This document shows positions 37,236 through 44,302 of a stretch of DNA of 64,000 nt, piece by piece; position 1 is the first letter of the stretch, and every line of letters starts with the position of its first letter. The notes below the pieces were generated by a model. It was not told the DNA's origin. It ran no database searches and saw only the letters and a program-made list of their open reading frames with translations. The stretch comes from an uncultured Verrucomicrobiota bacterium (GTDB taxonomy: Bacteria; Verrucomicrobiota; Verrucomicrobiia; Limisphaerales; UBA9464): assembly GCA_903916195.1 (NCBI GenBank), contig CAIWVP010000013.1:1-64000 (forward strand), given 5' to 3'. The translations under genes were made by a program, and so were the position numbers.

Positions 37236-38195
37236 TCAGTTCCGGAACTTCTTGTGGCACCCGGCACAGGCCTCGCCCGCCGCTTTGGACAGGGCGTCGG
37301 CCCGCCGGAGGGCGGCCGCGTCGAGCGTTGTCGCGCGGGAAGCGAGCAGGGCGTGCAGGTCCTTCGCGTCGGATTCCGCTTTGCGGAGGAGCCCGAGGAA
37401 CGTGTCGCCCTTGGCCTGTGCCAGGGCATCGCGCTGGAGTTCGCGATAGGCCTCTTGCAACAGCAGCGCCTCGGTCGCCGGGATGAGGTCGGGCTGGCCC
37501 GGCGGGGCGCGCCAGCCGGCCTTTCGCACGGCCTTCAGGTGGTCCCATCGATGGTCGATCGCGACCATGGCGTCGACGAGGCCGGACACCTCGGCACGGG
37601 ACGGGAACGCGTCCGGCACCCGCGTCAGCGCCTCTGCGGTGGGCATGCGGAAATCGGCGTTGGCGCGGTAGAGCCCGGAGTGATCCGGCGAGGTGCCTGC
37701 CTGCTTCATCCAGGCGACGGCTTGGTCCGGCGTCCAGCCGGCGGTGGCCTGGCAGATCACGCCGACGGCCGCGGGACCGCGGTGCTGTCCGTGATGGCAG
37801 TGGACGAAGATGGGGCCTTCCAGCGTCCGCGCCGCTTTGACCAAGCACGCCGCCGTCTCCGCCGGGATGCCGTCGTAGCCGTGCGGGATATGGACGTAGC
37901 ACAGCTGGAATTTCGCGGCGCGTTCCACGTCGGGCGGGGTGCCGTCCACCGAGAGGATCGTCTTCACCCCGAGCTTTCGCAGCGAGGCGAAGGCCTCGTC
38001 GCCTTTGGGTTGGCTGCCGGAATAGATGCGGTCGGTCGCGCGGAAGAGATTGTCGATCCCCGGCGCTTGGAGCGGTCCGGCTTTCGGAGCCATCGGGGCG
38101 GGCCCGTTGTCCGCCGGCTCCTGCGCCGGCGCGATCGCCACGACCGCGCAGACCGCTGCCACGCGGAAGAACTTGGCGAGGGTCGGGAAGTTCAT
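37236..38195 (-). CDS. periplasmic HCX5R (tyrosine/dual-specificity-like) phosphatase fused to C-terminal heme-binding CxxCH segment
   Basis: Signal peptide; IFVHCHHGQHRGPAAVGVICQ (HCX5R); C-terminal GEACAGCHKKFRN resembling cytochrome c'/c556. Confidence 0.78.
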   Translation of the reverse strand: MNFPTLAKFFRVAAVCAVVAIAPAQEPADNGPAPMAPKAGPLQAPGIDNLFRATDRIYSGSQPKGDEAFASLRKLGVKTILSVDGTPPDVERAAKFQLCYVHIPHGYDGIPAETAACLVKAARTLEGPIFVHCHHGQHRGPAAVGVICQATAGWTPDQAVAWMKQAGTSPDHSGLYRANADFRMPTAEALTRVPDAFPSRAEVSGLVDAMVAIDHRWDHLKAVRKAGWRAPPGQPDLIPATEALLLQEAYRELQRDALAQAKGDTFLGLLRKAESDAKDLHALLASRATTLDAAALRRADALSKAAGEACAGCHKKFRN

Positions 38196-38250
38196 GCGGA
38201 GAACGCGGCGACGAGAGCAGCCGTGCACATCTGCGGCAAGCATCGCGGCG

Positions 38251-38976
38251 TCACGCGGTTTCGCCGAGATGGCGCCGGAGCAAGGCCCGGAGCTGGCGGG
38301 GCTCCCGGACCACCAACGTCCCGGCCTTCACCTCGAGCAGGCCTTGGCCGCGGAACTTGGCGAGCGTGCGCGACAGGGTCTCGCTCACGGTGCCGAGCTC
38401 GGCGGCGAGCACGCGTTTGGTGGTCTTGAGCTCGATCGCCACGGGCCCCGCGGCGGCGGAATCGGGGCAGCGCCGCAGCAGCCAGTTGGCGAGGCGCGTC
38501 TCCACGTCCTTGAGGGTGAGGTCCTCGAGCTGTGCGACCAGCACGCGCAGGTGCGAGCTCATGGAGGCGAGCATGCGCAAGGCGAGCTCGGGCCGGTGCC
38601 GGAGCAGGGCAAGGAACCCCGCCTTCTGCACGAGCAGCACCTGGGACGGCTCGATGGCCCGGGCCTCGGCGGGGTAGCCGTCCGGAGTGACGAGCGACAC
38701 CTCGGCGAAGGTGTCGCCGGCCCGGAAGACGTGGATGACCTGCTCTTTGCCGGCCGCGTTGACCCGGTGGACGTTCACCGCGCCGCGCTGGACAAGATAG
38801 AAACCGGACGACGGGTCGCCTTCGTGGAAAAGGTAGCTGCCTTTGTCGAGCGACTTGCTGCTGACCAGCGCGGAGATCGCCTCGAGGTCGGCCATGGGCA
38901 ATCCGCTGAAGAGCTGGCTCGTGCGGAGCGTGTGGACGACGGCGGCGTGCTTCAGCGCTTCGGCGGGGGCGGGCAT
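38251..38976 (-). CDS. Crp/Fnr-family transcriptional regulator
   Basis: cNMP-binding-like domain (SYLFHEGDPSSGFYLVQRGAVNVHRV) and HTH (LKTTKRVLAAELGTVSETLSRTLAKFRGQGLLEVKAGTLVV). Confidence 0.92.
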   Translation of the reverse strand: MPAPAEALKHAAVVHTLRTSQLFSGLPMADLEAISALVSSKSLDKGSYLFHEGDPSSGFYLVQRGAVNVHRVNAAGKEQVIHVFRAGDTFAEVSLVTPDGYPAEARAIEPSQVLLVQKAGFLALLRHRPELALRMLASMSSHLRVLVAQLEDLTLKDVETRLANWLLRRCPDSAAAGPVAIELKTTKRVLAAELGTVSETLSRTLAKFRGQGLLEVKAGTLVVREPRQLRALLRRHLGETA

Positions 38977-39250: not shown

Positions 39251-40729
39251 TCAGAACGAGAGCGTCGCCTGGGTGAATAAAAAGTCCGCGTCGGTCGCTC
39301 CGAACCCCGGCGAGGCGAGCGATCGCTCGATATAGCCGCCGACGAAGAAGTGCCCGTAGCCGGCCTGCAACGTCGCCCACGGCCGGAGCGTCCAGGTCGC
39401 GGTGAGGTCCGCTTCCTGGCCGATGTAGCTGTCGAAGGCCGGGTTGATCCCGTAGCCGGTCCCCGGTCCCGCGACTTGGCCGGTGCGTCGCGCGCCGTTG
39501 ACCTGGTAGAAGCTGTCATGCGTGTCGGCGAGCCAGAAGGCATGCCAGTCGAGCGCGAGGAGCAGCCGCTTGACCGGCTTCACCGAGGAGGAGGCGCGGA
39601 GGTCGTGGAGGTTCTGCCACGAGGCGAAGTCCATGTGCCCGTAGAAGCGGTGGTTCGTGGGGAAAAGGTTGTCGAAGGTGCCGTGCCGGCCGTCGGTCGG
39701 ATCGCTGTCGCCGGAAGAGTAGTCGTGCTCGAGCCCGAGCCTCGGCGACGCCGGAAGATCGGCGAAGGTGTATCCGCCGGCGATGTGGGTAGCGAAAGCC
39801 TGTTGCGACAGGCTCGGTCCGGCGACGGCGTCCTTGAAGCGCCCGAACTGGCCGGCGGCCTCGAAGCTGTGGTCCCAGCCGTGCAGTTTCCCGGGCAACG
39901 ACCTCATCCGGATGCCGACCGTGTAGATGTCCCGCGGGCTGGCGCCGGTCATGGTCGCGGGCAGACCGGCGCCCAGCGTCGTCGGTGATCCCGTTCCTGT
40001 GTTGCGGGCGAGCACGTAGGCCTGGGTCTCCTGGAACGGGACGAGGGTGCCCGACGAGGCGTAGATGCCGGAGAACCCGTCGTAATCGTTGGCCAGATCG
40101 AGGTTGTGGTCGTCCGGGACGACCACGCGTCCGGCAAAGGCGTCCACCCAGACGTCGCGGTCCTCGTAGCGCAGCTTCGCCGCGTCGAAGACGCGTCCGA
40201 CGTTGTTCCAATCGAACGCACCGACCAAGCGTTCGTCGCCGTAGCTCAGCTCTTGGCGGCCGATCTTCGCATGGAGCGGGAATCCGGCCGGATCGCCGAG
40301 CCGGAGGTAGGCCTGGTGCAGCTCGGCGCGGTCCGATTCCGGGTCCGGGACACGGTCGTCGTGGAGCGAGAAGCTGTCGCGCCCCTCGACGAGGACACCG
40401 GCCCAAGCGGTCGGCGCGTACCCGAGATGGAGCGTCGTGCGGAAGAGCTCGTAGGTGTTGCCCGTATCGGCGCCGTGGTCGCGGAAATCGATCGCGCCCG
40501 GCGAACCGGGTATCGCGGTGTGCCCACGGTGCTCGAAGCGGGCGCGGAACTGACCACCGATATCCCACGCGCTGAAGGTGCCGCTCTGTTGCCGGAGCCA
40601 GTGGTTGGCGAGCCCTTCCGAGGAGGGTGCCAAGGACGCCGCGGCGGCGGTTGCGGCCGTGGCGGTCTGGGCGACAGCGAACGCCGGGGAAAGAGCGGCG
40701 ATGAGGCTGAGGACGGCCCGTGGTTTCAT
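39251..40729 (-). CDS. outer-membrane beta-barrel, alginate-export-like family
   Basis: Signal peptide MKPRAVLSLIAALSPAFAVAQ; barrel-like FRARFEHRG, LHLGYAPTAWAGVLVEGRDSFSLHDDRVPDPESDRAELHQAYLRLG; C-terminal ATLSF. Confidence 0.82.
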   Translation of the reverse strand: MKPRAVLSLIAALSPAFAVAQTATAATAAAASLAPSSEGLANHWLRQQSGTFSAWDIGGQFRARFEHRGHTAIPGSPGAIDFRDHGADTGNTYELFRTTLHLGYAPTAWAGVLVEGRDSFSLHDDRVPDPESDRAELHQAYLRLGDPAGFPLHAKIGRQELSYGDERLVGAFDWNNVGRVFDAAKLRYEDRDVWVDAFAGRVVVPDDHNLDLANDYDGFSGIYASSGTLVPFQETQAYVLARNTGTGSPTTLGAGLPATMTGASPRDIYTVGIRMRSLPGKLHGWDHSFEAAGQFGRFKDAVAGPSLSQQAFATHIAGGYTFADLPASPRLGLEHDYSSGDSDPTDGRHGTFDNLFPTNHRFYGHMDFASWQNLHDLRASSSVKPVKRLLLALDWHAFWLADTHDSFYQVNGARRTGQVAGPGTGYGINPAFDSYIGQEADLTATWTLRPWATLQAGYGHFFVGGYIERSLASPGFGATDADFLFTQATLSF

Positions 40730-42760: not shown

Positions 42761-44302
42761 ATGAAGAACCCGCTACACCCGTCATCGCCAGCGCGCGCCG
42801 CGCGCTGGGCCAAGATCCTGCCCGGCCTGTTGCTGGCAGCCACCGCGCTCGCCGCCGACAGCCCGGGCGCGTCGCCCAAGGTCATCGATCCGGAGATCCA
42901 GGGCGAGGAGAAGGCCGTGCTCACCCATGCGCCGATGGTGCCGCCGCCGATCACCCGACGGCATGCGACCAAGGTCCTCGTCGACGTCGAGGTGAAGGAG
43001 GTCGTGCGCCGGTTGGCGGACGGCGTGGACTACCTTTTCTGGACGTTCGGAGGGGAGGTCCCCGGCCTGTTCATCCGGGTGAGGGAGGGCGACCTGGTCG
43101 AGTTCACGCTTGAGAACCATCCGTCGTCGAAGATGCCGCACAACATCGATCTGCACGCCGTCACCGGCCCGGGCGGCGGTGCCGCGTCGTCGTTCACCGC
43201 GCCAGGGCATTCGTCCCGGTTCTCGTTCAAGGCGCTGAACCCGGGCCTCTACGTCTACCATTGCGCGACCGCGCCGGTGCCCATGCACATCGGCAACGGC
43301 ATGTACGGGCTCATCCTCGTCGAGCCGAAGGAGGGGCTCCCGAAGGTGGACCGCGAATACTACGTGATGCAGGGCGATGTCTACACCACGGGCAGATACG
43401 GCACGCCCGGCCTGCAGACCTTCGACCAGGAGAAGGCCATCGACGAGCGGCCGACCTATGTCGTCTTCAACGGATCCGTCGGCGCGCTCGTGGGCGACCA
43501 TGCCATCACGGCCAAAGTCGGCGAGACGGTGCGGCTCTACGTCGGCAACGGCGGGCCCAACCTGCTCTCGTCGTTCCACGTGATCGGCGAGATCTTCGAC
43601 CGTGTCTATCCCGAGGGCGGCACCGTCGCGTCGCAGCAGAACGTCCAGACCACGCTCGTCCCGGCCGGCGGATCGGCCATCGTCGACTTCAAGGTGCAGG
43701 TACCGGGCACGTTCGTGATCGTGGACCACTCGCTTTCCCGGGCCTTCAACAAAGGCGCGCTCGGCATGCTGAAGGTCAGCGGCAAGGAGGACCTGCTCGT
43801 CTATTCCGGCAAGGAGGTCGATGCGGTGTATCTCGGACGACAGGCCGAGGCGGGCAGCGATTCTGAGAAGAAGGTCGCGTCGTTGCAGGCGCAGATGAAG
43901 GAGGCCATCAAGACCGACCCGCGCATCGCCAGCCTGACCAAGGAGATCCAGGTCGAGAAGGGCAAGCAGGTCTTCATGCAGACCTGTTTCGTGTGTCATC
44001 AGGTGGAAGGGCAGGGCATCCCGGGGCAGATCCCGCCGTTGGCCAAGTCGGACTTCTTGATGGCGGACAAGGAACGTGCCGTGCGGACCGTCCTGCAAGG
44101 CATGTCGGGCGAGGTCACCGTCAACGGGACCAAGTTCAGCGGCACGATGATCCCGCTGAACTATCTTCCCGACGAGGACATCGCCAACGCGGTCACCTAC
44201 GTGCGCAACAGTTGGGGCAACAGCGGGGACGCGGTGAGCGTCGCCGAGGTCCGTCGCATCCGTAGCGAAGCCCCGCCACCGCCGGCCAACACCTTCGAAT
44301 GA
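42761..44302 (+). CDS. nirK: copper-containing nitrite reductase with C-terminal cytochrome c domain
   Basis: [43 protein letters not shown] copper ligands, [15 protein letters not shown]-terminal [20 protein letters not shown]. Confidence 0.96.

Follow-up and report, generated by a model that had tools for sequence, protein, structure and literature searches.

A predicted exported protein joining a TpbA-like phosphatase fold to a class II cytochrome c domain in Verrucomicrobiota

The locus and its predicted product

The gene considered here lies on the minus strand of the window, the whole 64,000-nucleotide stretch of verrucomicrobial DNA that was analysed, and is present as a single copy in the source genome. 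It starts with the ATG at 38195 and its stop codon ends at 37236; a second in-frame ATG is found at 38243, but the signal peptide begins at 38195. The resultant 319-residue product (P0001) is predicted to combine an export signal, a phosphatase-type domain and a heme-binding domain, the features of which are collected in Table 1. Examination of the 49 full-length fused homologues established that 46 have a strongly hydrophobic N-terminus, in some cases with a lipobox, a result which supports the prediction that the protein is exported and thus extracytoplasmic.

Table 1. Predicted features of the fusion gene and its product, with positions in the window
Feature	Position	Strand	Basis
CDS, predicted exported DSP-class II cytochrome c fusion, 319 aa	37236..38195	minus	ORF and homologues
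Predicted Sec signal peptide, residues about 1-25 (MNFPTLAKFFRVAAVCAVVAIAPAQ)	38121..38195	minus	sequence and homologue N-termini
TpbA-like DSP/PTP domain, residues about 42-191	37623..38072	minus	phmmer, profile, AF2 model, Foldseek
Asp108, candidate general acid, aligned with TpbA Asp105	37872..37874	minus	phmmer alignment and family alignment
Variant P-loop HCHHGQHRGP, residues 132-141, with Cys133 and Arg139	37773..37802	minus	family alignment
Four-helix class II cytochrome c (c'/c556/b562-type) domain, residues 205-319	37239..37583	minus	AF2 helices, PF01322, profile
Met210, candidate sixth heme ligand	37566..37568	minus	invariant 52/52; b562 Met7 alignment, low probability
CxxCH heme c attachment motif, C310-A-G-C313-H314	37254..37268	minus	sequence; 52/52
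Arg318 of CxxCHxxxR	37242..37244	minus	52/52; same in cytochrome c'

Genes located near the fusion gene in the window code for a Crp/Fnr-type regulator, a TonB receptor, an alginate-export-type porin, a diheme cytochrome and a NirK-cytochrome c fusion. The regulator gene (38251-38964) is on the same strand and directly upstream of the fusion gene, from which it is separated by a gap of 55 bp, and a homologue of the porin gene (39254-40729) also adjoins the fusion gene in a distant locus (L006). The NirK-type copper nitrite reductase with its C-terminal cytochrome c domain (42761-44302; TIGR02376, 8.2e-107) is coded for 4.6 kb from the fusion gene, and is followed by FGE-sulfatase-type and SCO1/SenC genes.

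The phosphatase-type domain

Comparison of P0001 with solved structures by phmmer matched it to TpbA (2m3v; 8.4e-8), as did an equivalent search conducted with a profile of 46 family members (7.4e-9). The AlphaFold2 model generated from six sequences (mean pLDDT 77.9) consisted of an alpha/beta phosphatase core followed by four C-terminal helices, and its top Foldseek match was likewise TpbA (4r0s; E 2.6e-6; TM 0.73 by target length), a periplasmic phosphatase in which Asp105 serves as the general acid (PMC4409338). When scanned singly, 39 of the 46 members gave a DSP-PTPase family match at E<=0.01, P0001 alone giving Pfam matches that fell under the curated cut-offs.

The HCX5R motif of P0001 spans residues 132-139, and the longer loop of which it forms part, HCHHGxHRGP, was invariant throughout the 52 family proteins, both the catalytic Cys133 and Arg139 being present in every one. 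Position 108 was occupied by Asp in 44 of 50 family proteins, N, G or Q being recorded in some members. Gly140 directly followed the catalytic Arg in all 52, a position held by Thr in the unfused relatives; Ser or Thr at this point is usual, albeit not universal, in Cys-based DSP/PTP enzymes. Since the Gly is found in every member and the general acid is absent from some, the enzyme may be a weak phosphatase or may perform another chemistry. The only invariant cysteines were Cys133 and the two that would bind heme, Cys148 being Cys in 38 of the 52, and since the active site has no further Cys of this constancy close by, nothing points to a classical disulfide switch. Taken together, these sequence and model data support the assignment of the N-terminal domain as a DSP fold equipped with Cys, Arg and Asp active-site residues.

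The cytochrome domain and its heme

The four C-terminal helices of the full model comprise residues 205-225, 238-255, 264-286 and 293-317, and the protein terminates in CAGCHKKFRN, such that the CxxCH motif (310-314) lies five residues from the end and Arg318 is placed four residues past His314, a spacing identical to that of cytochrome c'. PF01322 (Cytochrom_C_2) matched 37 of the 46 members at E<=0.01 when each was scanned singly (best 9.8e-7); P0001 alone gave E 0.036 and 15.5 bits, below the cut-off of 26.5. A profile of the C-terminal domain detected cytochrome c' among solved structures (5agf; 4.2e-4), with b562 just behind. The isolated domain was modelled poorly (pLDDT 62.3) and the corresponding Foldseek search returned no match at E<=0.001, so that the class II assignment is founded on the profiles, the CxxCHxxxR motif and the four-helix layout, which together support a class II cytochrome c domain with predicted heme attachment. 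The source genome codes for two cytochrome c assembly (PF01578) proteins, and attachment of the heme is thus possible. A search of the same genome for stand-alone PF01322 proteins gave no match, but is uninformative, since the control genomes equally gave none.

Besides C310, C313, H314 and R318, the residues M210, D214, L220, E248, E252 and R255 were invariant in the 52 family proteins, and invariance on this scale indicates that the motifs of the fusion are not chance occurrences. Glu248, Glu252 and Arg255 (window 37429-37454, minus strand) are located on the second cytochrome helix, and are possible heme-propionate or domain-interface residues. Met210 is sited near the start of the first C-terminal helix of the model, and in an up-down bundle should therefore lie at the end that faces His314. 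In a global alignment of low probability, in which sequences of b562 and of an Alcaligenes cytochrome c' served as a rough guide, it pairs with Met7 of b562, the axial heme ligand of that protein. From the invariance of Met210 at this likely ligand position we infer a six-coordinate, low-spin His314/Met210 heme, a type suited to electron transfer and less so to the binding of NO.

Distribution and conservation of the fusion

Full-length homologues were located by protein searches within the genus, the family and the order of the source organism, and also in a member of another class of Verrucomicrobiota (G236); the breadth in Planctomycetota consists of two plasmid records, one from Aquisphaera giovannonii and one from Planctomyces sp. 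SH-PL62. Of 320 genomes belonging to the order, 56 were matched by a DNA pattern for the P-loop built without reference to the heme site, as were 3 in a phylum-wide sample of 388; every fetched match not cut by a contig end carried CxxCHxxxR at its C-terminus. All 28 unfused TpbA-like proteins of the phylum had the loop HCx(H/Y)GxDRTG, and none had CxxCH. Among the pattern matches and these unfused relatives, the loop variant and the heme domain were thus never encountered one without the other.

In a tree constructed from the phosphatase domain alone, a single branch (100/99) separated the 49 fused from the 28 unfused sequences. That loop variant and heme site are never apart, and that the fused proteins form one clade, implies functional coupling of the two as opposed to a chance fusion. 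The two planctomycete copies were nested among the verrucomicrobial sequences, which suggests plasmid-borne transfer of the fusion gene between phyla; both plasmid replicons were typed as rep_cluster_171. No match was found in the phages or viral contigs searched for a phage or viral origin.

Much of the preliminary description of this gene, which had proposed a periplasmic HCX5R phosphatase fused to a heme-binding segment, is borne out by these data. The P-loop fold it named is that matched to TpbA by phmmer, profile and Foldseek; the signal peptide it had noted has counterparts in nearly all full-length homologues (vide supra); the likeness of the C-terminus to the heme site of cytochrome c'/c556 agrees with the PF01322 matches, the CxxCHxxxR motif and the four helices; and the fusion itself, the conservation of which it had proposed to check among homologues, retains both HCX5R and CxxCH in 52 of 52. 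Of its proposed HMMER and Foldseek comparisons, that of the phosphatase half was positive by both routes and that of the cytochrome half by profile only.

Genomic context

Around a homologue 87% identical to P0001 (L055), the Crp, TonB and NirK genes were absent, the genes shared being those for Dus, the diheme cytochrome and one further protein. No common functional theme emerged among the genes directly flanking about 40 homologues (enolase in three; SCO1 and CusF in two each), and an operon or island function for the fusion gene was rejected on that account. A role in defence found no PADLOC match.

Only roughly one in five genomes of the family gave a strong NirK match. Across 50 family genomes, NirK was present in 8 of the 24 with the fusion gene and in 2 of the 26 without it (p 0.035), a weak association which vanished on removal of one small-genome genus (p=0.43) and is explained by genus composition. 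A link with denitrification was rejected on this basis, and because gene order was not conserved. The preliminary description had read the NirK island and TonB receptor as a linked context, and had gone on to suggest a redox- or NO-gated module; that gene arrangement does not extend to the close relative described above, and with NirK wanting from 16 of the 24 genomes that carry the fused gene, the gene context around the homologues lends the NO gate no support.

Proposed mechanism and alternatives

The protein is most readily viewed as a redox-responsive, extracytoplasmic enzyme of the Cys-phosphatase fold, the active site of which would be linked to how oxidised or reduced the electron carriers of the periplasm are; the probability of this reading is put at roughly 0.4. 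In a protein predicted to work outside the cytoplasm, a TpbA-like DSP domain is permanently joined to one of the class II cytochrome c type, the heme of which would be attached by the cytochrome c maturation system of the cell. Held by His314 and Met210, this would constitute a low-spin electron-transfer heme that trades electrons with carriers in the periplasm; whether it is oxidised or reduced might, either directly or through contact between the domains, determine whether the active-site Cys is reduced and working, such that an exported substrate would be dephosphorylated in response to the respiratory redox state. A more far-reaching form of the proposal, in which the HCHHGxHRGP loop and the cytochrome co-evolved to convert a phosphatase fold into a heme-wired redox enzyme or switch with passage of electrons between heme and Cys, is doubtful; were it correct, respiratory electron flow would directly set either periplasmic dephosphorylation or a Cys-based oxyanion or sulfur chemistry.

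Domain fusions often serve targeting alone, and the heme domain might accordingly be an anchor or a docking or maturation element and nothing else, or the DSP domain a phosphate-binding pseudo-enzyme, with no gating in either case. Replacement of the P-loop Thr by Gly and the occasional loss of the general acid are consistent with such an outcome, which is nevertheless judged somewhat unlikely, given that Cys133 and Arg139 are retained by every family member, unlike the situation in typical pseudophosphatases, and that the unfailing co-occurrence of the loop variant with the heme site suggests joint chemistry. Unlikely too is a role in which the P-loop Cys undertakes redox or sulfur chemistry (reduction of arsenate or another oxyanion, or transfer of sulfane sulfur) while the heme, which beside a Cys would be a natural electron donor or acceptor, provides or takes up electrons. 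The fusion loop ends in R-G-P like that of Cdc25 (HCEFSSERGP, as present in PDB Cdc25 chains), and Cdc25B and Cdc25C act as arsenate reductases in vitro when supplied with glutathione and glutaredoxin (PMC10135228), so that a loop of this kind can be catalytic and redox or arsenate-type chemistry is possible in the fusion; weak matches to the Blh sulfur transferase model (31 of 46 members) and the TIGR01244 sulfur transferase (18 of 46) point the same way. Against this, TpbA, the nearest relative over the full domain, is a phosphatase; five residues separate Cys from Arg in the loop, as in phosphatases; and arsenic and sulfur genes were not a recurrent feature of the neighbourhoods of about 40 homologues.

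The NO gate of the preliminary description, by which an open cytochrome c'-type heme would bind NO and so control the phosphatase in a denitrification response, draws on the CxxCHxxxR motif and PF01322 likeness to NO-binding cytochrome c', and on the proximity of the NirK gene and of the Crp/Fnr regulator on the same strand. It is highly improbable given the invariant Met210 at what is probably a ligand position, the loss of statistical association outside a single genus, and a gene arrangement that an 87%-identical homologue lacks.

Both halves of the protein are known folds; no description of the heme c-Cys-phosphatase combination, its loop signature or its spread was found in the family libraries and papers searched, a literature which left most subscription journals outside its range. 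A phosphatase-like enzyme appears here to be wired to an electron carrier. If the heme does control or use the active-site Cys, it would tie the redox state of respiration directly, at the molecular level, to phosphorylation or dephosphorylation outside the cytoplasm in Verrucomicrobiota and Planctomycetota, phyla with poorly known envelope signalling; the fixed association of the loop variant with the heme site yields a clear and testable prediction.

Comparison with known systems

The closest solved relative of P0001, by sequence and by fold, is TpbA (PA3885) of Pseudomonas aeruginosa (PDB 4r0s, 2m3v), with which it shares the DSP fold, the HCX5R Cys and Arg, an aligned general-acid Asp and a periplasmic location, predicted in the case of P0001. 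However, TpbA has the loop HCKHGNNRTG and no heme domain, whereas the fusion has HCHHGxHRGP and a C-terminal cytochrome domain. The full-length homologue WP_148599161.1, from plasmid pOJF2_1 of A. giovannonii, is 50% identical and has the same fusion, although its record names it only as 'dual specificity protein phosphatase' and does not note the CxxCH site. The DUF442, BLH_phosphatase and TIGR01244 sulfur transferase domains are of a related DSP-like fold and gave weak matches, but differ in the loop, and we know of no heme domain in any of them. In Cdc25, which with Acr2 represents the rhodanese-fold phosphatases and arsenate reductases, HCX5R is followed by Gly-Pro as in the fusion loop; the rhodanese fold is nonetheless a different one, and this local likeness is probably convergent. 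With the class II cytochromes c (c', c-556) and cytochrome b562 the fusion shares the C-terminal CxxCHxxxR heme site and, by prediction, a four-helix domain, but those proteins normally stand alone, whereas the fusion family has E248, E252 and R255 as invariant residues and, where the distal site of cytochrome c' is usually open, an invariant Met210.
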